Positions 14,105-61,200 of a stretch of DNA of 64,000 bases are shown here, in pieces (the first letter of the stretch is position 1; every line of letters starts with the position of its first letter). The notes under the pieces were generated by a model that saw only the letters and a list, made by a program, of their open reading frames with translations, had not been told where the DNA came from and made no database searches. Source of the stretch: Siphonodentalium dalli (Eukaryota > Mollusca > Scaphopoda > Gadilida > Siphonodentaliidae); NCBI GenBank assembly GCA_032622095.1, contig CP136061.1, forward strand, positions 25,732,991 through 25,796,990, given 5' to 3'. The translations under genes were made by a program, and so were the position numbers.

Positions 14105-14850
14105 AAACCAGCCGATGAGCCCGACGTTATCCGGGCTATTCAAAAACCAAATTTCAAGTCGATAGCTCTACCCAGCCCGACGTTGTCCGGGCTATTCAAA
14201 AACCAAATGTCAAGTCGATAGCTCTACCCGTTTCCGAGATCTGGTCTGCGCATGCGCGAAGCTGGCGTCGCACGGGCTCGGCGACCCGATAAAATTCGTA
14301 TCCGGGGCAAGATACATTCACATACCAAATTTCAAGTCGATAGCTCCACCCGTTTCCGAGATCTCGTCTGCGCATGCGCGAAGCTGGCGTCGCACGGGCT
14401 CGGCGACCCGATAAAATTTATATCCGGGGCAAGATACATTCACATACTAAATTTTATGTCGATAGCTCCACCCGTTTCCGAGATCTCGTCTGCGCATGCG
14501 CGAAGCTGGAGTCGCACGGACTCGGCGACCCGATAAAATTCGTATCCGGGGCAAGATACATTCACATAGCAAATTTCAAGTCGATATCTCCACCCGTTTC
14601 CGAGATCTCGTCTGCGCATGCGCGAAGCTGGCGTCGCACGGGCTCGGCGACCCGATAAAATTCGTATCCGGGGCAAGATACATTCACATACCAAATTTCA
14701 AGTCGATAGCTCCATCAGTTTCCGAGATCTCGTCTGCGCATGCGCGAAGCGGTGGCCGCACGGGCTCGCCAATACGACAACGACCACCGCCTGGTCAAAC
14801 TACACACACGTACCAAGTTTCGTCCCGATCGGTCGATATAATTCTGATAT
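14105..14850 (-). repeat. 122-bp tandem repeat array (CTAG family, array 1)
   Basis: Copies recur every 122 bp, as shown by GCGCATGCGCGAAGCTGG at about 14250, 14372, 14494, 14616 and 14738. The left edge is the hairpin GCCCGACGTTATCCGGGC (14119-14136). The right edge is the CCAAGTTTCGTCCCGATCGG block. Because 122 is not a multiple of 3, successive copies rotate reading frame, which produces staggered ORFs of about 95 codons; these are not genes. Confidence 0.85.
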
Positions 14851-16960: not shown

Positions 16961-18055
16961 GCTGATGGGCCCGACGTTGTCCGGGCTATTCAAAAACCAA
17001 ATTTCAAGTCAATAACTCCACCCGTTTCCGAGATCTGGTCTGCGCATGCGCAAAGCTGGCGTCGCACGGGCTCGGCGACCCGATAAAATTCTCGTATTCG
17101 GGGCAAGATACATTCACATACCAAATTTCAAGTCGATAGCGCCACCCGTTTCCGAGATCTCGTCTGCGCATGCGCGAAGCTGGCGTCGCACGGGCTCAGC
17201 GACCCGATAAAATTCGTATTCGGGGCAAGATACATTCACATACCAAATTTCAAGTCGATAGCTCCATCCGTTTCCGAGATCTCGTCTGCGCATGCGCTGC
17301 ATGGGCGTCGCACGGGCTCGCCAATACGACAACGACCACCGCCTGATCAAACTACACACACGTACCAAGTTTCGTCCCGATCGGTCGAGAATCGTAGATT
17401 TGTATTAATGACAGACAGACAGACAAACAGACAGACAGAGGTCTTCAAAATATATATGAGATATGTTTGTATGTCTGTCTGTATGTCATTGATACAAATC
17501 TACAATTCTCGACCGATCGGGACGAAACTTGGTACGTGTGTGTAGTTTGACCAGGCGGTCGTCAACGTCGTATTGGCGAGCCCGTTCGGAGCCCGCTTCG
17601 CGCATGCGCAGACGAGATCTCGGAAACGGGTGGAGCTATCGACTTGAAATTTGCTATGTGAATGTATCTTGCCCCGGATACGAATTTTATCGGGTCGCCG
17701 AGCCCATGTGACGCCAGATTCGCGCATGCGCAGACGAGATCTCGGAAACGGGTGGAACTATCGACTTGAAATTTGCTATGTGAATGTATCTTGCCCCGGA
17801 TACGAATTTTATCGGGTAGCCGAGCCCATGTGACGCCAGATTCGCGCATGCGCAGACGAGATCTCGGAAACGGGTGGAGCTATCGACTTGAAATTTGGTA
17901 TGTGAATGTATCTTGCCCCGGATACGAATTTTATCGGGTCGCCGAGCCCGTGCGACTCCAGCTTCGCGCATGCGCAGACCAGATCTCGGAAACGGGTAGA
18001 GCTATCGACTTGAAATTTGGTTTTTGAATAGCCCGGACAACGTCGGGCTCATCGG
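16961..18055. repeat. Head-to-head pair of 122-bp repeat arrays
   Basis: The left half (16961-17400) runs from CTAG plus the hairpin GCCCGACGTTGTCCGGGC into 122-bp units and ends in CCGATCGGTCGAGAATCGTA. The right half (17495-18055) is the same series inverted, ending in a matching hairpin and TTAG. A (ACAG)n/(TGTC)n microsatellite lies at the centre (17410-17490). The whole is an approximately 1.1-kb palindrome made from two copies of one CTAG-ended element. Confidence 0.8.
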
Positions 18056-20078: not shown

Positions 20079-20199
20079 CATGGAATCGGGATGTATTCCC
20101 CCGTCTTAAAAATGCTCTAATACTGATGAATACTGACCGACATACCGACATTTATTTCATAAGCACAAGACACAGGAAATCTCCGGAATATAGAATGGT

Positions 20200-20455
20200 G
20201 ATTGAGCTTGATGAATATTTATTCTGGGTTTTTAGTATTCGAGTTACACGTGTGGAGACCGGCGTATAATAGATATGTAAATTTTCGTCTTCAGCGTTTT
20301 TAACTCTCGAATGTTGGATGAGCTCGATCAATATTCATTCTGGGTTTTGAGTATTCGAATTACACGTATGTGGACCGCGAACTCCCCGGAGTATGGTAGA
20401 TATGTAAATTTTCGTCTTCAGCGCTTTTCACTCTCGAATATTGGGTGAGCTCGAT
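20200..20455 (+). repeat. Tandem ~123-bp duplication hit by the transposon
   Basis: Two units share TTATTCTGGGTTTT or CATTCTGGGTTTT, ATTCGA(G/A)TTACACGT, ATATGTAAATTTTCGTCTTC and a final GAGCTCGATC. Related pieces occur at 25863-25905 and 26915-26995. The 4.9-kb element inserted just after the second unit. Confidence 0.7.
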
Positions 20456-20461
20456 CCTTAT

Positions 20462-20912
20462 GGTTACACTGGTGTAAATACTATAGCCAGCTCCCCCTGC
20501 GGTTGCGGGAGGAGTATAGAGTTTCACAGTTAAAACACTCTGGGCTGTGATTGGTTGCATGAATTAAATGTAAACTGTTGACAAAAATTCAAGGAATCAT
20601 TCTCCCACAAACTTCATTTGCCAAGAGGCCCATTCATTAAAGGTGAAGTCTGTTGTGGCTGTTTAGAAATTTTAAGTGTGATTGAAAAAATGACAATATT
20701 TTTTTAGTGCGGAACTGACCCTAGTCATGAAAAAACGAAAATTTGAAGTGGATTCCCTGCTAGACGGTGTTGATTTTTTTATTGGGAAAGTTTCCACAGA
20801 TGTCAAGCTCACATAATCCGAAGGCAGTTTGAACAGTTTCCATTTGACCTCTGATGCAGATCAACAAACGTTAACATTGAAGCCTATGGGAAATATTTAC
20901 ACCAGTGTAACC
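20462..20912 (+). repeat. Left 451-bp terminal direct repeat
   Basis: The repeat is bounded by a perfect 19-bp inverted repeat of its own. Its inner edge is GTGTAACC|TAAAGG, and the nuclease start codon lies only 28 bp further in. It may supply that gene's promoter (inference). No ORF of note lies within it. Confidence 0.9.
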
Positions 20913-20940
20913 TAAAGGTATTTATCCAGTTCCTGATAGC

Positions 20941-21381
20941 ATGTCCCAAATCCAATTTTTAAACACACATTTAAGAATAAACATGGAGGAGAGTCAATTT
21001 TATGATTTTTACAATGCGAAATTATCCGAAAAATCGAGATTTGAGGGGTTGTTCGACTGTCGCGTTTGGACAGGTCGGACAAGAAAGGACGGTTATGGAT
21101 ATTTATATGTCAAGTTCCCTTCGAGTTATAATTCTGAGCCCGGTCAGCCGAGAAAGGATTGGGGTGTCCACCGAATAGCATTCGTCATAAAACACAGACT
21201 CGCGATGTCTCCACCCGCCTATTACCCTGGCAGCCTCGAACTTAGTCACATATGCCATAGGAAGACATGTGTAAATCCCGACCACATTGTTATGGAAAGC
21301 CATGAAAAAAATGTTGAACGACGCCATTGCGAGGGACAGAAATATTGCACTAGGGCACATAGACCCTTTTGTCTGATTTGA
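20941..21381 (+). CDS. His-Me-finger (I-PpoI-like) zinc-binding nuclease of the transposon
   Basis: 146 residues from ATG 20941; a second in-frame ATG lies at residue 15. Seen: FDCRVWTG, then KDGYGYLYVKFPS, WGVHRIAFVIKH, LELSHICHRKTCVNPDHIV, and MESHEKNVERRHC followed by C and H/C near the end. The order C..W.G..DGYG..HR..LSH.C....C.NP.H....S.E.N..R..C fits the zinc-binding loop and His-Me/HNH catalytic region of I-PpoI-type homing endonucleases. The likely general-base His is in LSHIC and the metal-binding Asn in the following CVNPDH..HEKN segment. Known family role: double-strand or nicking DNA cleavage with structural zinc. Inferred role: cutting at donor or target during spread of this element. 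Its stop codon is 20 bp from the end of the convergent transposase tail. The frame is intact. Confidence 0.75.
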   Translation: MSQIQFLNTHLRINMEESQFYDFYNAKLSEKSRFEGLFDCRVWTGRTRKDGYGYLYVKFPSSYNSEPGQPRKDWGVHRIAFVIKHRLAMSPPAYYPGSLELSHICHRKTCVNPDHIVMESHEKNVERRHCEGQKYCTRAHRPFCLI

Positions 21382-21401
21382 GTTAAAGAGAAAGGTACAT
21401 T

Positions 21402-21650
21402 TCACCTCCTTGGTTTAACCCTTTTCCACTTGGATGACTTAGTGTATGTGTGTTCCTTTAACTGTTTGGGACATGCTTCAGGTGGAATCATGATATCCTT
21501 CTGATAGGCAATTTCCTCACTATGTTTGTCGTAGAGAGCATATAACTTTGCCCTCCTGTCCACTCTTGCCCGTTTGGACTTTTTGGTCATTTTATATGAT
21601 CTCAAGTCATTTCCAGCCTTCTGCACTGCTGCAAGTCTTTTGGACACTTT
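21402..21650 (-). pseudogene. Frame-shifted C-terminal tail of the transposase
   Basis: A second minus frame overlaps the last codons of the transposase and encodes VSKRLAAVQKAGNDLRSYKM, followed by a strongly basic stretch (KKSKRARVDRR). Related transposases have a basic tail of this type after the catalytic domain. The main frame instead ends in CPKDLQQCRRLEMT. A one-base loss in the AAA run around 21651-21653 would explain the switch. It could also be a short unrecognised intron or programmed frameshifting. Confidence 0.5.
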
Positions 21651-24035
21651 GATCTTGGGTGAATCTCACAATCAAGTTCTTTACACAACACAGATATGGA
21701 ATTCCCACAGCCTACATTTGTGGAATGGCAAGCTGAATGTGCACGCCCACTAACATTTCGGGTAAATGTCACATTTTTGGGCAGAGATACCCGAATTGCT
21801 CTGTTGAATGCCTCGGCTTTTTGCGTGTTCATGCCAAGAAAAGTCTTGTCATTCATTTGTGGACACAGTCTGTAGTCAACACACTCCGTGAGAATATCCG
21901 AACAGTCCGAAGTTTTATTGATCGTAAATTTGGGTCCTAGCACAGTTTCATTTTTAACGATCCAGTTGGATTTTTTCGTTCCCTTGCACAGATATGAGTA
22001 TTTTTTACACATAACATGGGAGTTTTGGAAACACTTCACTATTGCTTCTTTCACATTCAGTAAATGTTTCTTCATTCCTTCAGCGTTGGCTTTGAAATGC
22101 TTTCCCGCAGATGTCAATTCACCCTGACATCGATCAGAAATGTTCATTGCGAGTTTATTTATCAGTTTTGATTTGCTTTTTAGGTCAGGTCCAGCGATGA
22201 GAGTTGGCAGCGTCTTATGGTTTTTGATGAATTTCCGATGGTTTCTCGACACATGAGCTGAGTCCAGTTGATGAGTTGGTCTGGTCGCTGTTGCTCCTTC
22301 GTCATAGAGATCCTCACAGCCTTTGAAGCCCGCTGCATCGGGATCAGTAACAAGGTGACCAATCTCGATATTGCTATTGGTTTTCATTTCACCAAATGCT
22401 TCTTTCGCCCATGTTCTCTCATCGCCGATGCTCTTCTCAAATGGAATCGTTGCGAAACAGTCTTTCCCACATGTGTGATTATCACATTTGTTCAGGTGTT
22501 TGCGTTTCGAACAAAGCTTGTTGTGCACCACAAGTCCAATAATGTCATGTGACGGCGTTAGATTTTCAACAACACTGTATATAACTTGAGTGCTTGGTTG
22601 AAATGGGTTTCTGCCACACCCAGAATAAATCGGATTATTATAAAGTCCATCTGCCTGTGCGTCGATGATATGTGGACTCTTCTTTCCATCAGTTTGTTGT
22701 TTATGTATGAGTTTCGAACGTCTTTCTCGGAGATCCTTTTTATTTATTTCCTCAATTTTTGGTAAACTTTTATTTGCTGTGCTCTGAATTGACTTTTCGG
22801 CTGGCGGGGGAATATTAGCACTTGCACATATGCGTCTGAATCCTCCTGCTGCAATGGGTGTTTTAGATAATCCGACTGAAAGTCCAACATTTGGTTTTGC
22901 TGGTCTCCTGCCAGGGTTCCCTGTTATAATTTCATCATACAGGTTGAAAATTTCAGATCTAAAATCACAACACGTGCAAATCATTTTCTCTCTACATCCA
23001 ATTCCACGAATTTCCTCAGCGTTCATGTCCCAGTATAGGAATCCTGTACACGTGGGTTTATATGCCCTATGTTTTTCGAAGGAAGAGTTCCACATCATCG
23101 CATTTCGGCGTATATTGACCACCCTGTTTGATCCGCATTCGCATTGCCAACCACTGACACATCTCTTGTCTGGGCTATCATTTCTGAAAATTAAAAAGTA
23201 AAATCCTAAATTTTACTCTTTGAACCATATATATTAAAGGTACATACATATCGGTCTAACTGTGAGATATTTTTTTTCTTTAAAAACACTGCCTGCTCCA
23301 AACAGTCCTTTGAATGAATAGTAAACTAAAGCACTCAGTGCTGCAATTTAATTTATATATATCTGCATGCAAAGCAATGTTATACCTGTGCTGTTTGCAA
23401 TTAGTGACCCAATTCATATGAACAGAATAAGGGGAGTAACTCTATCTGCAAATTATTAGGCTGAAAACCTGTGTTTTGACTCAGGGTACAGTTTTCAAAT
23501 CATTTCCTGCACACAGAGGGATGGGGGCATGTCAAATTAATTTTTGTTGTCATGCAGGAGGACACAGCCAAGATTTTGAAAAAAGATTTTAAAGTCATAC
23601 ACTTGATTTGAGAAGATCAAATATATGTTTAGTTTATTGATATTATAATGCTGAATTTCATACCCCCCCCCCCCCTATTTCTTATCTATATGATGAAAAG
23701 AACATGCATATAACATTGTTTGTTGCATGGAATATTGTGAGAGATGTTTACCTTTCATTTTTTCTTTCAGGCTCTTTGTTGTCAGATTGACCCTTCCCTC
23801 TTGGATTAAGACTGTTTGCAGCAGACCGAGTTTGATGTGCTCTCACAGAGTATGGCTTTTCGAGAATGTCCAGTGATGTAATGATCGTTCTTTTGCGTAA
23901 ATGTTTCACTACTCTGTTATCCACATATGGTTCTCGCTTGGCTTTATACAACTGTTTGTGTCCTGGTTTGAATCTGAGGGGATTATCAAATGTAAACTTC
24001 ATTGTCTCACAGTCCTCACAAATTCCAAAATCCAC
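21602..24035 (-). CDS. DDE-type (Mutator/Kolobok-like) transposase, two exons
   Basis: Seen: exon 1 24035-23752 starts MDFGICEDCETMKFTF. The intron 23751-23184 is GTAAAC to TTTTCAG. Exon 2 is 23183-21602. The joined frame is continuous, 621 residues. The N-terminal part of exon 2 has Cys pairs (CVSGWQCECG, CTCC) suggesting zinc binding. A GFRRICASANIPPP segment follows, resembling the pre-catalytic region of Mutator-like transposases (Pfam Mutator-like type). Candidate catalytic segments are IIDAQADGLYN (first Asp) and LVTDPDAAGFKG (second Asp), with HVSRNHRKFIKNHK and CPQMNDKTFLGMN later. Known role of the fold: cut-and-paste strand transfer at element ends. The 4-bp TTAT duplication and GG...CC termini fit Kolobok (TTAA) better than Mutator (8-11 bp). 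The start codon is uncertain; 900 bp of unassigned sequence upstream could hold a 5' exon. Confidence 0.72.
23184..23751 (-). other. Intron of the transposase gene
   Basis: A 568-bp intron with GTAAAC donor and pyrimidine-rich TTTTCAG acceptor on minus. It contains a homopolymer tract (C-run at about 23666-23676 on plus). The phase joins exactly, which supports the gene model. Confidence 0.7.
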
Positions 24036-24940
24036 TCAACAACTCTGTCACATTAACAGCATTAATTTGGAAAATTCTTCTCGCGAATATACAACTTCCA
24101 GAATTTTTACAATGAGAAATGATATTTGTCTCGAGAAATGATGACAACTAACCGTTCTGAGATCAGCACCTTGCTTTTAAGGAGTTTTGAAATTAATGAT
24201 GCTTGAAAATGTCTGCCATCTTATCTGTTGATATATTACTACTTTATCAGCTGAAGGAACATGTTGTCATTATAACCTCATCATTGGCACCCCCTGTCCA
24301 ATGTTAGTTAACGACATTTGATACTGTGAGACAATAGATTAAGGATTCCTTCTAATTGGGATTGCAGCAGACATTACAAATTTTAGCACCATTTTCAATC
24401 AGGAAAATTCACCGGACCCAGGGTTAAAACACCCTTGTCTGAGCTCATTGTTTAAATAATTTTCCACTTAATTTTTCTGATTTTGGGACAAGTAGTAATT
24501 GTTCTTCAAAATTATGCCAAGTTTACTGACTAATGAACCCTCCACACTATTTATTTTTCAAAGTAAAGGCATTTTTTGTGTGAATCTGCAGCTGATTTGC
24601 ATAGGGTTAAATGAAACCTGTGCATATCTGTTCCTGTGGAGAAATTAAATTCATGGGACACAACAGATGAAAGCCAAGTGAAAACCTGATCAAATGAATG
24701 TGGTATAACTTCTCATGCTTTATTAGATGCCTCATATTATTAAATTAAACTCAAATCCAACCTGCATTTTGGCTTTTTATTCTGAATGGGTGTATTATTG
24801 GGTGGGTTCCAATTAAAGGGTCACATGGCATTAAAAACACATTTTTTTAAAACAACATCAGTTTAATAATTATAGGTATATATCAAGGTTCACAATGGGT
24901 TATGCACAAAAAATATGAAGAAAGGCCACATGGCCCTTTA
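24036..24940 (-). other. Unassigned internal region upstream of the transposase start
   Basis: AT-rich sequence between exon 1 and the right terminal repeat. It may be 5' UTR, promoter or a missed short exon. The inner boundary CCTTTA|GGTTAC mirrors the left inner boundary GTAACC|TAAAGG. Confidence 0.5.
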
Positions 24941-25391
24941 GGTTACACTGGTGTAAATACTATAGCCAGCTCCCCCTGCGGTTGCGGGAGGAGTATAGAG
25001 TTTCACAGTTAAAACACTCTGGGCTGTGATTGGTTGCATGAATTAAATGTAAACTGTTGACAAAAATTCAAGGAATCATTCTCCCACAAACTTCATTTGC
25101 CAAGAGGCCCATTCATTAAAGGTGAAGTCTGTTGTGGCTGTTTAGAAATTTTAAGTGTGATTGAAAAAATGACAATATTTTTTTAGTGCGGAACTGACCC
25201 TAGTCATGAAAAAACGAAAATTTGAAGTGGATTCCCTGCTAGACGGTGTTGATTTTTTTATTGGGAAAGTTTCCACAGATGTCAAGCTCACATAATCCGA
25301 AGGCAGTTTGAACAGTTTCCATTTGACCTCTGATGCAGATCAACAAACGTTAACATTGAAGCCTATGGGAAATATTTACACCAGTGTAACC
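24941..25391 (+). repeat. Right 451-bp terminal direct repeat
   Basis: Same sequence, length and orientation as 20462-20912. It is followed directly by TTAT, the right copy of the target duplication. Confidence 0.9.
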
Positions 25392-25395
25392 TTAT

Positions 25396-26072
25396 TACGC
25401 GCGCCGCGTGTATAACTAGTGGGGAGTTTCTCGCTTCTCGTGGGGGCTGACATTATCAATGGGTGTTTTATTAGTTTTATTTATAGAATGGGAATTTTTG
25501 GGATGATTAAAAGTCAAACTGCGAGCTGGAGGCCGAGTCCGGTAAAAGGTATAGTTGGGGAATTTCAATTTCGTTTATTGTCGTTAATCAACGTTGATTA
25601 ATGTTGATTTTTGGTTTGTGATAAACTATATGTCAATTACAACTGAAAGAATTTTCTGCAGCCCATGAACTGGGGCTTGTGGTCGGAGACCGTCGAGTCG
25701 GTCGCCGTTTCGTTAATTAGGTGCTGGTTGTTATTGTTATTTTAACGGAATTCTGAGTTGGTCATTCGCAAAACCAATATATTTTATATTCTACAATAAC
25801 ATTCTTGGGTTTATAATATATGATCTTGAGCGCGTTACCATTTCTGACATTGGTTTTCTTGTTCATTCTGGGTTTGGAGTATTCGAGTTACACGTGTATG
25901 GTTGGAGATCTAACTTTCCCGTTATTATCAGGTCACCGATTCATTTATATACAAGTCGAGATGGTCACCGATTAATTTATAGATGTCAAGAGCACGTCAT
26001 GAAATCACGTGGTTTCTAGGTTGGTGAGTGTCACGGCTTAAAAATGTGCAAACGCACACAATTATAATATAC
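25396..26072. other. Unassigned non-coding stretch right of the transposon
   Basis: It contains a fragment of the 20200-20455 repeat (at about 25863-25905). No gene recognised. Confidence 0.45.
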
Positions 26073-26790: not shown

Positions 26791-27240
26791 TCCTCGTTTC
26801 TGGTCGCGTTTTCAACCCCCCCCCCCCTCGGGCATTTTGAGTGCGTGATACTCGTCAACTCGGAAACACGTGATTCCCCACCGAGAAGACGTCAGATACC
26901 GACTCATAAGGGGACCGCGAACTCACCAGAGTGTAACATATATGTAAATTTTCATCTTCAGCGTTTTTAATCATCGAATATTGAGTGAGCCCGATTTGCT
27001 TGATTGATTTTGATTTTGTACAATAACAACTAATAATTTAATCATAAGCTGTCAAACCACATAATACTATAGATTAGAAGAGTAGCCTCACTGTAATAAA
27101 ACCATTGGTTGTCACATCATGGCCGCCGTTTTTTTTCAGATCAGGCCCTACGTCAGTTGATGTTAATTATAGCGAAAAAATCTTGTAAAATGTATACACT
27201 TTCGTGTATACTTTCGTCTTTCGTGAAGCTAAGACATGCC
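26791..27240. other. Unassigned non-coding stretch
   Basis: It contains a C-homopolymer at about 26817-26827 and, at 26915-26995, a fragment of the repeat at 20331-20455. No gene. Confidence 0.45.
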
Positions 27241-28275: not shown

Positions 28276-28285
28276 ACAATTTCCT

Positions 28286-28870
28286 TTAGCACGGGCTACA
28301 GGTCGTATTTTTTGTCAGATCATTATGAAATTTGTCATAGCTGTTGCCATTGACATGTAGATGGGAACTAGTTATTTTTGGGGTCATTCGGCAAAAACAT
28401 GGCTGCCAGCGGCCATCTTGGATTTCAAAATTCAACCCATTAGCACGGTCTACAAGCCGTATTGTTTGTCTGATCATCATGAAATTTGTTATGGATGTTA
28501 ATATTGACATTCGGTCATAAAACATGGCTGCCGGCAGCCATCTTGGATTCTACTCTTTGCATGACTAAATCCTTTGGCATGGGCTACATGTCGTACCTTT
28601 GGTCTGATCATTATGGAATTTGCCATGGCTGTTAACATTGACATGTAGAGGGGAACGAGTCATTGTGGGGGTCATTCGGCCATAAAACATGTCCGCTGGC
28701 AGCCATCTTGGATTTTACTCTTTGGAACACAATACAGTCCACTTCCCTCATCCGATCATCACCAAACTTCATATCAATCTTGATAATTAATCTACTAGAT
28801 GAAAGCTATCAATGTTTTTGAATTTCATTGGAAAACGTAGCCGCCAGCAACCTTCTTGGATTTTACTCTA
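28286..28870 (+). repeat. ~145-bp tandem repeat, about four units
   Basis: Units share GGCTACA(G/T)GTCGTA, TCTGATCATTATG(G)AATTTG, ATTGACATGTAGA, GGTCATTCGGC and a GGC(A/C)GCCATCTTGGATT ending. Boundaries lie near 28286, 28438, 28565 and 28725; the last unit is diverged. No coding potential. Confidence 0.75.
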
Positions 28871-40214: not shown

Positions 40215-43200
40215 GTGAGTATGAATGAATGCTGTATTGCATAACCTACCATTTAAAGTAGAACAATGCAGAACATATATACAAACAATCTATAATGAAT
40301 GTTGATGGCCGGTCTAAATTTTACACAATATGAAACATATTACATACATGTGACCCGCCATATCAAATCCAGTTGTAAGTCGGGATTTTTTTTATCCTGT
40401 GCCAATGCAACGAATGCATTCCCTTAAATGTGCGAGTCGACCATAGGTCGCCTCGCATATATAAGAGAATGCATTGGCCTAACAATTTTTTATCATTTGT
40501 TTTAAATAAATGTTTCTTACAATTTTTAGGACATAAAATAAAAAACATCCATTACCCTGCAGGGAGCCCCACACATATATAGAAGCATATAGAAGAGTGT
40601 CGTCTGCTCATGTTTGTCTGGGGCTCTGTATGGGTGAAATTATAAAATTGTTAAAGAATACAAGAAAAAATTGTTAGGCCAATGCATTCTCTTATATACA
40701 TGTATGCGAGGCGACCTATGGTCGACTCGCATATATAAGAGAATGCATTCACACAGGGTAAAAAAATCCCGACTTACGACTGGATTTGATATGGCGGGTA
40801 CACATATATGCTGTAATAATGAAATACAACGCAATACACGTCATAGTTTAAAGTTTAAAATTAACACCTTTCTAAAAAAAAAAGAACAGTTATATGTTCC
40901 GCCTCCAGTAAGATTGATTGGTCACATAGAGCCGCGCAACATATACCATGTTCACGTCTCGAGCCGTCAACGTAAGGAAAACCAAGACAATCGTTTCATC
41001 GTCTCTCGCGGCCTGCTTTTTTCATGATGTAATTTACGGTAAACAACGTTATTGAGAGATTTTGACATTTTCTGCTGATCATTCTTCGGAATAAATGTAA
41101 AATTTCTAAGAATTACCAGGACTGTCGGCAGAACATATACGTTTTTGTGGTGAATTGACTGTAACATGGTGTGAGATTGACGGCATGGAGCCTATGTTCA
41201 ACTCCAAGCCGCCAATGTCACACCATGTTACCGTCAATCCACAAGAATAACTTATAATTTGTACACCTCATCTCAGCTGCCCTCCGCGTTTATGTAATCA
41301 CACACCATCTGTATTCACACGATTAGCTCCATAAGAATCAGTACAAATCACGAATGTTTCCGAAGTTCATCAGACTACAACTGATGTTGATACTTCATAA
41401 AAAGCGATGAAAACGTACGTCACTTAACCCTTTACCCAACAAACCGGCCAAAACCGGCCAAATAAAGATTCAACAGCCTAAAATATCTTCGGTCTGTCTC
41501 AATAGAACCATACACATATGGATATCATTGGAACCGGCTCCTTGACCACATTGTGATAGTTACAGTTATGCCCTGTGCCAATGCATTCTCTTATATATGC
41601 GAGTCGACCATAGGTCGCCTCGCATATATAAGAGAATGCATTGGCCTAAAAAAAATCTTTTTTTAACACTTTTTACCATTTTTTCTTACATTCTTTAACA
41701 ATTTTATAATTTTTAATGTGTTAAGCCAATGCATTCTCTTATATATGCGAGGCGACCTATAGTCGACTCGCATATATAAGAGAATGCATTGGCACAGGGC
41801 CCTTCTGTTGGGTAAAGGGTTAATAATCCCGAATGCTATCACAACAATGCTGGACTCCATGCATGTCGCGCCTTGTGTGAGCTGGTCACTCCATGCACAC
41901 AAAGGCGGATACCAGTTGGTTTTGGACTTCCAGTCCTGCCCGGCAAATCACTTATCAGGGCTCTCTACCGGGAGAGGTCTGGAAACTACCAAACCAGCCA
42001 GGAAGAAGCGAACGAAAAAGACTCCATCCAGGAAAAAGAGAGACACAGAGAGATTGGCTGCGAGGAAAAAGAGGAAATCGACTGATGCCACACCAGGCGA
42101 CACCTCCCGCGCAGCCGAGATCGATGCACCGCCCGAAGTGGTAATGGACTCTCCATCGCCACGGATAGACGCGGACATCTCATTTTTCAACCCGAAGACG
42201 CCGGATTACACCGCACCGGAGTCTTCACCTGCCTCTCCTACAGCAAACGAAGCACCAACATCCGACCCCGAAGATACATCCGACTCCGAAGACACATCTG
42301 ACTCCGACTCCGAAGACACATCTGACTCCAACCCCGACGACACATCTGATTCCGACTCTGACTGCGACTCCGACGACACACCCGACTCCGAAAAAGAAGA
42401 AAGACAAAAGAACTTAATGGAAGTTTTAGCGAGAGCACAAGAAGCATTAAGAAAAGCCGATTTAATACAAGCCGAAACCGAAAAGCTCATTAATCGTCCG
42501 ACTCCAAGTTTGCAAACATCACCATCCGAACCACCGCCAAAAAAGAGAAAGAGAAATAGAAAGAAACAAAACAACCGCCGCTAAGACTCCTCCACCACGT
42601 TTTCGCCGCCTTGCCTCCAACCACAGCACCTACGACAGCCAAACTGTTCGATTGTCATCGGAAAAAACCAAGGAAGGGTGAAGAGACTTGCACACTGCAG
42701 TCCGACCATCATACCCGGCCTTCGGCCGGAAACGACTCAACGACGGTCACTTAAAGCCAATCGTGTTCATGCATTCCACTTCACAAAAAACGATGAAAAC
42801 GTACGTCACTTAAAGCCAATCGTGTTATTGGGCGACACTGTTGGAATTTGAAAAATAAATGTTACTTACAATTGTTATGGTAGTTTTGAAAAGTTGTTCA
42901 AATTATTAATGTTCTATTAAAATGTACTGGTATATGATCATAAGAAATAACTTGCAGATCTATTGGGGTCATTGGTTTTTGACCCGGCAGAGTAATTAGA
43001 GAGTGCTCAATTTCCCTTGATATATCAAGACTGCCCCGTGACGATAATATAAATAGTATAGCATTTGTTCCATGGTCAAAGCTGTTATCGTTTACCAGTC
43101 GGCTGTAGAACACGAACTCGGTCTGTTGAACACAACGATATCCAGTAAATCCGACATTGTTGCTTTATACACCATGGTGATTGACATCCTCATCAATGCT

Positions 43201-46200
43201 GCAAAGGAAGCAAGTCATAGAAGGACACACAAACGCAACGTTAAATCATATTGGAATGCTGATTTGAAAGCTCTTCATAAACGTATGCGACAATGCAGGA
43301 GGTTCTGGATATCTAAAGGGCGTCCAACAGACCTACCTAATCAATGTTTTCGTGCTTATATGGATTCCAAACGTCAATTTCGTCGATGCCATCGAGCATC
43401 AGTCAAATTCCTTAAAGTTCAATCTGAGAAAAGAATTGAATATTATGCACAATATGACCAGGCATCTTTCTGGAAAGCCATAAAGAGCAATACAAAATAT
43501 GGTATTAACCAAGGCTCTGAAATGAAATTCGGCGACCTCATATGCAGGGATCCTGAGGATATCGTTACTGGCTGGAGGGGCTATTTCCAAAATCTCTTTA
43601 AAAGCGGCAACCACGGTAATCCCAAGTTTGAAGCTTACATCGGAAACACTGTCAAACAGCTGAAAACTCGCAATACTGTGAACTTAGTATCTGATTTTGA
43701 ATTCTGTCACCCCGTATCTTCCAATGAAATTAGGTCCTGTATTCACAAGCTCAAAAAGCAGAAAGCTGGAGGCCTCACTCAGATCGTGAATGAGCATCTG
43801 ATACACAGTCCACCCAAATTATATGATGTCCTTGGAAAGTTATTTTCGTCCATGCTGGACTTTGAGTTCATACCCCGGGACATGAAAGTTGGGGTAATAG
43901 TCCCTATCTATAAAGGGGACCCAAAGCCTATCGAAAATCCGGATAGCCACAGGGCAGTCACATTGTTGCCTGTCACTTATAAATTATTTGAAACAATTCT
44001 CCTCGATAGGCTTCTACACTGACTCGGCGCTCTTTCAAAATTTCCCGAACAAACTTCAAAATGGCTTCCAGAAGGGTGTCGGGTGCAATGTAACATCCTC
44101 CTTTTTGCAGGAAAGTATAGAGTTTGCACTCAGTAATAACTCTGTAGTATATGCCGCTTTTCTAAACTCAAAAAAAGGCTTTCAATCGCGTTTGGCATGA
44201 TGGCTTGATATATAAATTGTACAGAAAAGGTCTCGCGGGACATATACTCAGAGTTATTGCTGACATGTACACCGACATGAAGAGCGTTGTGAGATACCAC
44301 GGTCTTCATTCAGAATCACTCGATGTAGAACAAGGGACTAGACAAGTTGACATCGTGTCACCTTTTCTATACCTTGTCTATATCGATGACCTTCTAGCTA
44401 CTTTATCCGACGCCCCAGAAGGTCTCCACATCGACGCTGTCTCTTGCAGTTGCCCCACCACTGCCGATGATATATGTTTGTTATCTTACTCTGACGGGGG
44501 CTTGAAGAACATGCTAAACACATATCACAACTACAGTATACCTGGAACTTCGAGTACTCTTTTTCCAAAAGCGAGGTAGTTGTCTTCGGGCCAAAAACGT
44601 ACCACCCAAGGCAAGCACGAGACAGCTCGATGTGGAAACTAGGCGAAAACAAACTCAAAGAAGTGGAGAGCGTGGTACATCTTGGGATACCCCAAAACCA
44701 GAAGTCCGACCGTCAACCAAATATAGATACAGCATGTGAACTAATGCGTAAAACCTTTTTCGGTGCATGCAGGTCGGCCACCGCAAATAACTATCGCCAA
44801 TATCTCAACTGATCATACTAAAGCATCTTGCACTCCCAAAAGCTTTATATGGCTGCGAGATGTGGTATCAGCTATCAGAAGCAAATTTCCTGCAACTCGA
44901 ACGATCTTACCGCATGTGTCTCAAAACAATTCAGTGTTTACCGACAAGGACAAGCATATGTTGCACACACAACGGCCTTGTGCAATATTGTGGGATTTCC
45001 GACAGATGCTGGATATGTGTTAAAATGACATTTGAAGTGCGAATGTTTGCGAAAAAACAAAACAATTCTGAAGTGATGAAAGGCCGTTTTTATCTATTAA
45101 ACAGAGTCTTTCGCTCAAATGGAGACCGCTTACGATCGGCAAATGTGTATGTACAATATATAATTACGTTTATAGCTGTGGTGCAACCGTGTGTCGGTCT
45201 GAAAAATGGATTTTGTGGTGTTGTTATGATATTTCTGTCACATTTACGTTCTAAAAATAGAATTTTTCGTCTTTTCGAAAGCAACTTCCGATTAAATGTT
45301 TGTACCGTTTATACACTGTGGTTATCACAAATCGTCGTTGAATGTTGTCAGCCAGCCACGACGGAGCACGAGCTAGTCGGCAGGATGCAAAAATGCCAGC
45401 TAACAAAACGACCATTGGGCATGGCATTTTTGCAGTTTGCAGTGCAATTTTGCCAGCGTATGAACGTACCCTTATAGAAGCCGATGTTAGTTTCGCGTCC
45501 CATTTGTTGATTTAAGTATTTTTTGTCGAGTTTTTGGATCATGTAATAAATATAATCTACAACTCGTCCCCAGTTTATAGCGGAATTTATAAAACTCGTC
45601 CAGTAAATTAGGTCCGGACCTCACCAAGGCTCGGCCCAGACCTAATTTACTGGACTCGTTTTGTAAATTCCGCTATAAACTGAGGACTCGTTGTATGTGA
45701 TAATCGGGTATTCTTTCATTGTAGGAATTACCAAACTGTGAGCTGTGTCCAGGTGAGTAATACTGCTATGTTAACACTAATGTAATGCCAGTCAAACATT
45801 GGTATGGCAGGTATCTACACTGACACACTGCAGGACTAGTATTCACCAACCTGATTTATATAGGATTGTACTTGGTTTATATATATAGAAGATCTCCAAC
45901 GAGTTATATTGAGAAAAAGATTTTACGAAACGAGTTTGATAAATTTGATTCACAACGAGTCGTAGAATTTAATGGAGGTTAATAAATTACGTATACAATA
46001 GAACGAGTTTGAGACACCTTTTATAACATAATCAAATACACGCGAAGTATTCATCGAAAACAACAATAATAAACTTCAGCGATCCAAAGTCATTGAAATA
46101 ATGGCGTGACGTCATCGCACGCGCTAATATTACACGTGTGTCTTACCAATATTTATGAAGTCGGTTTTGTGGTTTAATTATGTGATAAATATGATTATAC

Positions 46201-55200: not shown

Positions 55201-58200
55201 GTATGACAAAGATGGGGAAATGGCTAATATAAGCATCACACTTTCTGCCAAATCCCATTATCTAAAATAATTGTCTTTATATATATTATACAACTCTGTT
55301 AATTAATGTGCATGATTTAGAGAAATAAATATGTTTACACCAGATGAATGCGATGATGTTGATTGTGGTAATGGCCTGTGTGATACTGGCACTGGGGATT
55401 GCAACTGCTACCCAGACTATACTTCACCAGAAACGGGTTGTAACAAAGGTTAGTATTGTACGTTTCATCGGTCACATTTGACAAATATAGGCCTAGATAT
55501 CATGGACACCTTTGTGCTGTTTTAGTTTTTGGATTTACCAATGGTTTAGCCATTCATGTTGGCTCGCAAGCAGTCGATCAGACAGAGGTCATGGACCCCA
55601 GTACTTGTCACGCCAGAATGGCGCAAACGTAGCCAGATTAGAATGACTGCCGGTCGGCTCAGTGCCTATACAAATTGTCAACAAAACATAGAAAAATATA
55701 TAGATAAGGGCTGGAAATTATTTGTACATAATATAATAAGATTCGCGGTGGTGATTAAAGGTCGTCAACGGGAGAAGTCGAACTCTTCCGAAACCGCCCG
55801 CATGCCACATGATTTTAGAGTTATCCATCTTCATCCGCAATTTTGTCCGAGACCCTCTGTTTGACAAAGTGATTCTATCCACATATTATTACACATTTCG
55901 AAAAATAACAAACTTCAAAAATCGGTTTCTCTAATTAATGATGCAGTAAGGGCTCCAGACCACCAATTACAAAAGCAACATTAAACCTAAAATGGACCGT
56001 TGTCTGCTTTGTTCTGTTGACACATTGTTGAAAACCAACATGATAAGTAAATTAGACGTGTAAAATAACATAGAATATCGTATTGCTATTAAAGACACAT
56101 TGTGGACTTGTTCTGATGCGTTAAACAGTTAAGTTAGTATCCAGACACTATGCGAACTGGATGAATGTAGCATTCTGCTACAACGCCGAAAATCTGAAGC
56201 AAATCGACCGTACCACTCCATAGAAAACATCTGAACTACGTTCAATTGTAAATGTTTACTTCTCGATTCGGGACACAGCTAGTGGCAATAAAGTAACGAA
56301 AACGATTTCGCCATCGAGAGTCACTTAATTAAATTAATATATAATAATGACGGTATGTGTTGCCAGTTTAGATTTAATATATGTAAACATAACTACTTTG
56401 AGCAAGATTATCTTTCATTTATATTTGATAACCCTATCGGAGTGATTCACATCACTTAAACAAATTAAGAAAATAATTTATGTTGTCCCTCTAAAAAAAT
56501 AAAAACAATATTAAATAAATTAAGTTATCAGGTCTTGACATCCCTTTGCCAATTGGTATAAACCATAAGGCAGACGAAAGTGAACAAGTACATAGCAAAT
56601 GGATTTTCATATAAAGAAGCCGATGCAAAAGTTATGATACGATGTTAGAGTAAATGGACTTTGAATTATTTTCGGGATCTTTTCTTTGTCATCTGTTCTA
56701 ATTTATATTGGAATAGAGGTCTGAATAATGCATGGTATAGTATGACGAATAATTATCAGGCAAATTTTTTCGAACTTAATTGCATGGTTCAAGTACGCAA
56801 ATACCAAGTACGTTTTGAATCACATTTGCTCCATCACCTCCTACGGCTACACCAGATATGCTTGCCAATATAAACCCTAAGATGGCATAATTAATCGTGT
56901 ACCAATCGAGCGACACATATGGTGGTGATATTGACACAAACGGGGGATGAGGTGGCGACACATATGGTGGTGATGTTGACACAAACGGGGGATGAGGTGG
57001 CGACACATATGGTGGTGATGTTGACACAAACGGGGGATGAGGTGGCGTCACATATGGTGGTGATGTTGACACAAACGGGGGATGATGTGGCGACACATAT
57101 GGTGGTGATGTTGACACAAACGGGGGATGAGGTGGCGACACATATGGTGGTGATGTTGACACAAACGGGGGATGAGGTGGCGACACATATGGTGGTGATG
57201 TTGACACAAACGGGGGATGAGGTGGCGGCACACATATGGTGGTGATGTTGACACAAACGGGGGATGAGGTGGCGACACATATGGTGGCAATGTTGACACA
57301 AACGGGGGATGAGGTGGCGACACATATGGTGGTGATGTTGACACAAACGGGGGATGAGGTGGCGACACATATGGTGGTGATGTTGATACAAACGGGGGAT
57401 GAGGTGGCGGCACATATGGTGGTGATGTTGACACAAACGGGGGGTGGTGTGGCGACACATATGGTGGTGATGTTGACAAAAACGGGGGATTAGGTGGCGT
57501 CACATATGGTGGTGATGTTGACACACAAGGGGGATGAGGTGGCGACACATATGGTGATGATGTTGACACAAACGGGGGATGAGGTGGCGACACATATGGT
57601 GGTGATGTTGACACAACGGGGAATGAGGTGGCGTCACATATGTTGGTGATGTTGACACAAAAGGGGGATGAGGTGGCGACACACATGGTGGTGATGGGTA
57701 TGAGGTGGCGACACACATGGTGGTGATGTTAAAACAAATGCTGGTGCTGAAGTAAACGGTGATACTGAATCGAATTGTGATGGGACGAAACAGTCACGAC
57801 TGGAGAACCAATCATATTAAAACAACACAATGTCAGAAAAGTTGAACCAGTATTGTGTATTTATGTCGTCTGCCAGATTATTGAAAACGTGGTTGAATAA
57901 TGTTGATGTTATTTTATGTTGTTTTCGTCCTTCGCACGATAGGAAATAGTTCTACAAATGGCTACCAACAAATTAAAATACGTGACACGCCATATCAAAT
58001 CCAGTCGTAATTCGGGATTTTTTTTACCCTGTGCCAATGCATTCTCTTATATATGCGAGTCGACCATAGGTCGTCTCGCATATATAAGAGAATGCATTGG
58101 CCTAACAATTTTTTACAATTTTAATAAATTTTTTTTGTATTCTTTAACAATTTTATAATTTCACCCATACAGAGCACCAGACAAACATGAGCAGACGACA

Positions 58201-61200
58201 CTCTTCTATATGCTTCTATATATGTGTGGGGCTCCCTGCAGGGTAATGGATGTTTTTTATTTTATGTCCTAAATATTGTAAGAAACATTTATTTAAAAAA
58301 AATGATAAAAAATTGTTAGGCCAATGCATTCTCTTATATATGCGAGGCGACCTATTGTCGACTCGCATATGTAAGAGAATGCATTGGCACAGTGTAAAAA
58401 AATCCCGACTTACGACTGAATTTGATATGGCGGGTCACATATACAATAAAGATTGTTTGATTTATTATCTCGCAGACAGTAATGATTTCAGATGGCAGAC
58501 TGAGCGCATACACCACATGTATACATACTAGTCTGATTCATTAGCTAGATAATGCGGTAGTATTTGCAAATATTTCCTGTCAAACTGTCTGTCGACCTAC
58601 CTAAAAAGTTGTTTTTACGTTTTTTAAACCACTTTTTAAATACATGGAACTTATGTTTACCTTGTCCGATCAAACAGAAACCAGTTGAAGATGAATTTCA
58701 TTTTATAACGAAATGTCCGTTATATGCTGATTTGAGAAATGAACTATATGAAGTAATGGAAGTGCAATATAATGGCTTTAGCGCTATGTCAGAAACTCAG
58801 CAATTCAATTTGATTCTCAAAAATGAAAAACCATATTCTTGTTATAAAATATGCAACTTGATTAGAAAATGTTTTGATCGAAGATCCCAGCAGTAGCAAC
58901 TATATGTAGAGGAACGTGTCAGAGAGTACTAACACATCAATTGGTTATTTAGAACAATGAGTTTCCGATTCAAATTGGTTGCTTGATATTGATAGATTTT
59001 GAAAATTCTCGAATGGGACGCCTCCAAAACACCGATAAGGTTTGGTAAATGGGCGGTCGACAACGTATGTGAACATGTAATCAAGCCCTCAGGCTAGCTA
59101 AATCTTCTTCGCGGATAATTTCAGACAATGTCCGATTAGCTAATGGCAATGCTACAGCCGGAAGAGTGGAAGTGTACAAGCTTGGGGCATGGGGTACAAT
59201 ATGCAAGGACTCATTTGATGACATTGACGCCCAAGTTTTGTGCAGCATGCTTGGCTTAGGAGGAGGCATTGCCTTGACAGATGGAGAATACGGACAGGGG
59301 ACAGGGGCAGTACTGCTGGACAACTTAGAATGTACCGGAGTCGAGATTACAATCTCGGATTGTACACATGAAGGATGGAATATTCATGACTGTGATCATG
59401 AAGACGACGCAGGACTAATATGTGAAAGTAAGTTATACACAATTGTCATCCACTGTTAGACAATTTACAGACAGTTGTATCATTTCATTACGGCAATGTG
59501 TTATGTACGGTTACGGAACATTGTATCATTTCATTACGGCAATATGTTCTGTACGATTACGGAACATTGTATCATTTCATTACGGCAATATTTTCTGTAC
59601 TGTTACGGAATATTGTACAATTTCATTACGGCAATATGTTCTGTACGGTTACGGAACATTGTATCATTTCAATACGACAATATGTTCTGTACGGTTTCGG
59701 AATATTTTACAATTTCAATACGGCAATATGTTCTGTATGGTTACGGAACATTGTATCATTTCATTACGGCAATATGTTCTGTACGGTTACGGAATATTGT
59801 ACCATTTCATTACGGCAATATGTTCTGCACGGTTACAGAATATTGTATCATTTCATTACGGCAATATGTTCTGCATGGTTACAGAATATTGTATCATTTC
59901 ATTACGGAAATATGTTCTTTACGGTTACCGGCTGTTGTATCATTTCGTTATGGCAATGTGTTATGTACGGTTACGGAACATTGTGTCATTTCATTACGGC
60001 AATACATTGTGTAAGGTTATGGAATATTGTACCATTTTATTACGGCAATATGTTCTGTACGGTTACGGAATATTGTACAATTTCATTACGGCAATATATT
60101 CAGTACGTTTACGGAACATTGTATCATTTACTACGGCAATATGTTCTGTACGTATACGGTTACGGGACATTGTATCATTTCATTACGGCGATGTTCTGTT
60201 CGATTACGGAACATTATATCATTTCATTACGGCAATATGTTCTGTAAGGTTTCGGAATATTTTATCATTTTAATACGACAATATGTTCTGTACGGTTACG
60301 GAACATTGTAGCATTTCATTACGATAATGTTATGTACTGTTACGGAACATTGTATCATTTCATTACGACAATATATTCTGTAAGGTTACGGAACATTGTA
60401 TCATTTCATTACGGCAATATGTTCTGTAAAGTTACGGAATATTGTATCATTTCATTACGGCAATATGTTTTGTACGGTTACGGAACATTGTATCATTTCA
60501 TTACGGAAATATGTTCTGTACGGTTACGAAACATTGTATCATTTCACTACGGCAATATGTTCAGTACGGTTACGGAATATTGTACAATTGCATTTCGGCA
60601 ATATGTTCTGTACGGTTACGGAATATTGTATCATTTCATTACGACAATATGTTCTGTAAGGTTACGGAACATTGTATCATTTCATTACGGCAATTTGTTC
60701 TGTAAAGTTACGGAATATTGTATCATTTCATTACGGCAATATGTTTTGTACGGTTACGGAACATTGTATCATTTCATTACGGAAATATGTTCTGTACGGT
60801 TACGAAACATTGTATCATTTCATTACGGCAATATGTTTTGTACGGTCACGGAACATTGTATCATTTCATTACGGAAATATGTTCTGTATGGTTACGAAAC
60901 ATTGTATCGTTTCATTACGGAAATATGTTCTGTACGGTTACGGAATATTGTACAATTGCATTACGGCAATATGTTCTGTACGGTTACGGAATATTGTACA
61001 ATTGCATTACGGCAATATGTTCTGTACGGTTACGGAACATTGTATAATTTCATTACGGCAATATGTTCTGTACGGTTATGTAACAGTTGCAATTTTTCGC
61101 ATTTTGAACGGAAACAGATAACTATTACGAATTGCTATTTGTTGTCGTACGGTCCAAAAATATTTTCGGAGAATTGCGCAATACGAGCCAGTTTGTGAGA

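Follow-up and report, generated by a model that had tools for sequence, protein, structure and literature searches.

A KolobokP transposon family with long arrays in the scaphopod Siphonodentalium dalli and a candidate donor-flank signature at its insertion sites

Introduction

KolobokP is a lineage of DNA transposons in the Kolobok superfamily that Kojima and Bao described in 2022, with 228 families from seven animal phyla (PMC9587614). Its members follow the plan LTDR-INT-LTDR, in which long terminal direct repeats (LTDRs) of ~450 or 660 bp, each with short terminal inverted repeats (TIRs) and with termini of the form 5′-RR..YY-3′, flank an internal region (INT). They encode a DDE transposase with a C/DxxH motif and two zinc-finger motifs and, downstream on the opposite strand, an I-PpoI-like His-Cys box nuclease (PMC9587614). 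Also described are LTDRs on their own (solo LTDRs) and multimers of the form (LTDR-INT)n-LTDR, with target site duplications (TSDs) at the outer ends; the TSDs are 3 to 5 bp long, no strong target preference was reported, and excision sites have lost 1 to 5 bases on one side (PMC9587614). Here we describe an element of this plan at positions 20458..25395 of a 64,000-nucleotide stretch of the genome of the scaphopod mollusc Siphonodentalium dalli (assembly GCA_032622095.1, contig CP136061.1, positions 25,732,991 to 25,796,990), referred to below as the window. The host assembly comprises 2.23 Gb in 9 contigs.

We read the window element as a KolobokP DNA transposon of the Kolobok superfamily, with a probability of about 0.96. 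The assignment was made by comparing architecture and gene content with the published description, and on those grounds the agreement is broad: 451-bp LTDRs (of the ~450-bp class) with TIRs on each, GG..CC ends, short TSDs, a DDE transposase with DxxH, a His-Me finger nuclease encoded downstream in convergent orientation, solo LTDRs, and multimers. The differences concern detail. The TIR is a perfect 19 bp here versus up to 18 bp in the published families, the two ends of INT are TAAA and TTTA here versus TATA/TATA in KolobokP-1_MeMe, and mismatched TSDs with INT-derived bases are present here while unreported in the main text of that study (PMC9587614). The Kolobok lineages Kol0, KolobokE, KolobokD, and KolobokH have a Kolobok-type transposase in common with our element but carry other accessory proteins, and it is the LTDRs that set KolobokP apart from them (PMC9587614). 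Bacterial composite transposons, with which KolobokP has been compared (PMC9587614), likewise have an internal region between mobile repeats that may move singly or jointly; their transposase, however, lies in the flanking repeats, whereas here it lies in INT.

An earlier sequence-only reading of this locus had proposed an undescribed or little-described two-gene mobile system that moved recently as one unit. Recent movement as a unit is borne out by the identical repeats, the TSDs, and near-identical copies on many contigs; the claim of novelty is not, given the KolobokP description (PMC9587614). A categorically new class of transposon would fit the ways in which the architecture departs from that of ordinary DDE elements, yet that architecture, the gene pair, and its orientation are the very ones published for the 228 families in seven animal phyla, and we regard a new class as very improbable. 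A literature search for KolobokP, or for Kolobok together with long terminal direct repeats, returned PMC9587614 only. The element is thus of an ordinary kind and a rare but already named type; what is new is this copy of the family, the family's apparent youth and array length in the host genome, and the candidate flank signature discussed below.

Architecture of the window element

The left LTDR (20462..20912, plus strand) and the right LTDR (24941..25391, plus strand) are identical at 451 of 451 aligned bases, and comparison of the flanks places the TSD TTAT immediately outside each (20458..20461 and 25392..25395), as the sequence-only reading had reported. Not mentioned there are the perfect 19-bp inverted repeats at both ends of each LTDR (20462-20480 and 20894-20912 in the left one), with termini GG..CC. 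Between the LTDRs lies INT (20913..24940), which starts with TAAAGG and ends with CCTTTA, so that both inner LTDR-INT junctions, read toward the LTDR, are CC-TTTA-GGTTAC. The left flank of the element is itself a degenerate repeat with a spacing of ~116 to 127 bases and 82% identity (20193-20461), a further piece of which lies at 26912-26995.

The element's direct repeats are long, occur also as solo copies, and are bordered by 4-bp TSDs, a resemblance to long terminal repeat (LTR) elements that could point to an LTR retrotransposon remnant or a DIRS-like element. A Pfam scan of all 23 open frames of at least 60 amino acids in 20301-25560 (threshold E of 1e-3) matched only PF20700 and PF05551, and no reverse transcriptase, integrase polyprotein, or tyrosine recombinase was found in any of the 23 frames of the window copy. 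The lack of reverse transcriptase claimed earlier therefore stands. Together with the 19-bp TIRs on each repeat, this makes an LTR- or DIRS-like origin exceedingly unlikely.

Transposase and nuclease genes

The transposase gene lies on the minus strand. Exon 1, of 251 nucleotides (23752..24002), joins exon 2 (21602..23183) in frame across a GT-AG intron (23184..23751), and exon 2, which holds the DDE core, matches the Mutator-like transposase family PF20700 with an E value of 1.7e-48. A protein search returned 64 relatives, of which the top-scoring one has 54% identity and the named ones are from Mytilus and Mercenaria. When 14 of these 64 were aligned (numbering follows the exon-2 frame), D188 was invariant, and D290, H320 of the DxxH motif (317-320), and E467 were nearly so. 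Cysteines 234, 252, 394, 402, and 409 were likewise invariant and cysteine 248 nearly invariant; their grouping into candidate zinc fingers was made by eye.

The nuclease gene (20983..21381, plus strand) is convergent with that of the transposase and encodes 132 amino acids in a frame common to other copies. It matches PF05551, the zinc-binding loop of homing endonucleases, with an E value of 3.1e-13, and I-PpoI structures with a best E value of 7.1e-4. The alignment with I-PpoI spans the S-H-x-C-H motif, the next Cys, a His, Glu-Ser, an Asn, and a Cys. Of the eight zinc ligands it covers four, along with the catalytic residues, and the positions of the rest were assigned by eye. The nuclease and I-PpoI both have the His-Cys box signature with aligned catalytic His and Asn; I-PpoI, however, is a group I intron homing endonuclease located in an intron of ribosomal DNA, whereas the nuclease here is encoded inside a DNA transposon. 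A protein search with the nuclease gave no match at 1e-3, and a single-sequence fold was not used, its mean predicted local distance difference test score (pLDDT) being 40.6.

These results uphold the earlier description of a spliced DDE-like transposase facing a His-Me finger nuclease as far as domains and splice sites are concerned, with the reservation that the transposase frame of the window copy is interrupted. A comparison of 19 complete INTs shows gaps that are private to the window copy; one of these gaps puts its transposase out of frame ahead of the C-terminus, and the window copy is for this reason probably not autonomous. The common C-terminal exon-2 frame is intact in 17 of the 18 other complete copies, and 18 of the 19 complete INTs, the window's included, have an uninterrupted 132-amino-acid nuclease frame. 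Copies with open frames thus exist in the host genome.

Copies and arrays in the host genome

An LTDR search of the assembly yielded 1141 candidates, the best 40 of which were scored; all 40 were 100% identical to the query, two of them being the window's own. The surroundings of these 40 matches, together with the window, supplied the 23 insertions first examined: 16 LTDR-INT-LTDR insertions including that of the window (some gapped in INT or in one LTDR), two trimers, four solo LTDRs, and one left-truncated copy. TSDs flank all four solo LTDRs and both trimers. The sequence-only reading had suggested looking for further copies, solo repeats, and empty sites, all of which were found (the empty sites as paralogs of the target of insertion L027, below), and had named outcomes that would count against a single mobile unit. 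Copies might have ended at different points, but 22 of the 23 end at LTDR ends on both sides, the other being the left-truncated L031; transposase and nuclease might never have co-occurred elsewhere, which did not hold.

That two solo elements flank unrelated genes by chance, or that the repeats are an assembly duplication, has in its favor that each LTDR resembles a stand-alone miniature inverted-repeat transposable element (MITE) and that solo LTDRs with TSDs exist. The whole unit, however, is repeated across many sites, each time bordered by TSDs of its own, in the 16 separate insertions and in arrays. The differing flanks and TSDs at these many places exclude an assembly duplication, and this explanation as a whole has a negligible probability.

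Arrays were located with a protein search for the nuclease, in which the best 150 of 444 candidates were scored. Among these, the largest arrays have 13 detected units: an array on C8 has 13 nuclease matches at a spacing of ~4041 bases, and one at C3:3.23-3.29 Mb has 13 at a spacing of mostly ~4480. An array on C2 has eight matches 4495 bases apart, and one at C6:79.2 Mb has four that are ~4494 bases apart. The short spacing on C8 suggested units consisting of INT only; this was ruled out when each of the 13 unit starts sampled proved to have an LTDR joined to TAAAGG, and INT must therefore be shorter in that array. Likewise, we rejected the view that the array at C3:3.23-3.29 Mb is a “70% family” of its own, since the LTDR of the one unit read there is 98.5% identical to that of the window over 343 bases; we treat this array as belonging to the window family, with a nuclease gene that appears damaged. 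Altogether, the family looks young in the host genome, judging from the near-complete identity of the LTDRs examined, the open frames in most complete copies, and the long arrays.

Seven more distant nuclease matches, at 40 to 44% identity, were also among the 150. One of them, L053, has a 450-bp LTDR with TATA on its left and with TIRs that agree at 16 of 18 positions; its INT starts with TAAAGCTCTTT, which resembles the INT start of the window element. At another locus (C9:23152960-23165767), three nuclease matches lie ~6197 bases apart, a spacing that exceeds the normal unit length.

Target site duplications and a possible donor-flank signature

We tabulated TSDs for 37 insertions and retained 34, dropping L031 (left-truncated), C3:136.6 Mb (where the fetched left end was an inner array junction), and C7:47.1 Mb (no right end located). 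The C8 array, whose left end was not found, and L053, whose right end was not found, lie outside this set. In each of the 34 both outer ends are visible, and 30 of them have a perfect 4-bp TSD. The target preference is loosely TWNA, with T first in 22 and A last in 21 of the 30 perfect TSDs.

The four imperfect TSDs share a pattern. L015, L027, and L029 have TAAA in the right flank, and the array at C2:178.2 Mb has TTTA in the left flank; in all four, this tetranucleotide equals the bases that adjoin the LTDR within the element, on the side that INT would occupy. A rough chance estimate for four INT-derived tetranucleotides out of four, based on base frequencies in the perfect set and made post hoc, is ~1.7e-4. 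One possible source of the TAAA flank, a nuclease cut at LTDR-INT junctions followed by end-joining, can be rejected for L027 because host DNA is continuous across the site in paralogous repeats. L027 is inserted in a repeat whose paralogs, found in the window and nearby, show host DNA running unbroken across the site, and one of these empty-site paralogs has exactly four bases fewer at the insertion point. The empty site in the window is the repeat at 28282-28724, whose paralogs host L027 on another contig.

We put at about even odds the explanation that KolobokP units leave arrays with one of their sides still carrying four donor bases, and that these bases replace one TSD copy at the new site. 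Such carry-over would be the reciprocal, or mirror image, of the one-sided loss described for excision sites. Ordinary point mutation, without donor carry-over, is an alternative to which we give somewhat less than an even chance: it is possible because L027 and L029 are one base off a perfect duplication and because TAAA itself is a target in two of the 30 perfect TSDs, whereas it leaves to a chance of ~2e-4 (post hoc) that every imperfect TSD equals the INT-derived tetranucleotide on the side that INT would occupy. Donor-flank carry-over was found neither in the main text of PMC9587614 nor by literature search. If true, carry-over would be consistent with an intermediate that is circular or has staggered ends and contains a donor-derived spacer; if confirmed, the flank signature would make the transposition intermediate testable from sequence in a simple way.

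Proposed mechanism

Solo LTDRs, LTDR-INT-LTDR units, and arrays insert as units with 4-bp TSDs. The DDE transposase may act on the TIRs that bound each LTDR and could therefore move either a lone LTDR or a whole unit. According to the model of Kojima and Bao, the His-Cys box nuclease would make a site-specific break in or beside the LTDRs, and repair between LTDRs would expand or rebuild arrays (PMC9587614). Some units might exit arrays with four neighboring INT bases on one side, which would replace one copy of the new TSD. Since the family appears young, has kept open frames in most complete copies, and forms long arrays, it is a good place to ask by what means the composite form of KolobokP is maintained and which function its homing-type nuclease serves.

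Several points weigh against the reading of the locus as a KolobokP element moving in this manner. The Kolobok superfamily target, TTAA, accounts for only one of the 30 perfect TSDs (although KolobokP, too, was reported to lack a strong target preference), the transposase frame of the window copy is shifted, and the activities of both transposase and nuclease are predicted from sequence. The carry-over pattern comprises four insertions, was seen post hoc, and comes from insertions picked among best-scoring matches. Finally, we compared four junction readings and two joined INT ends, in several tries, with the I-PpoI site, given as CTCTCTTAAGGTAGC in PMC6294500. The best likeness was 9 of 15 positions, a score reached by ~0.3% of window positions, and a homing site at the LTDR-INT junctions on this basis is a weak candidate on which we do not rely.

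Other features of the window

A 122-bp tandem unit occurs in both orientations at 14194-14768, 16988-17319, and 17597-18019 and, by eye, also beside a distant nuclease match in L055. Two open frames, at 43057-44022 and 44791-45477, resemble what we take to be pieces of a long interspersed nuclear element (LINE); neither has a Pfam match at 1e-3, and the first has one weak protein match. Tandem arrays with units of 45 bp (17.5 copies) and 46 bp (35 copies) occupy 56910-57696 and 59475-61085, respectively, and the long open frames that arise from them are probably spurious.

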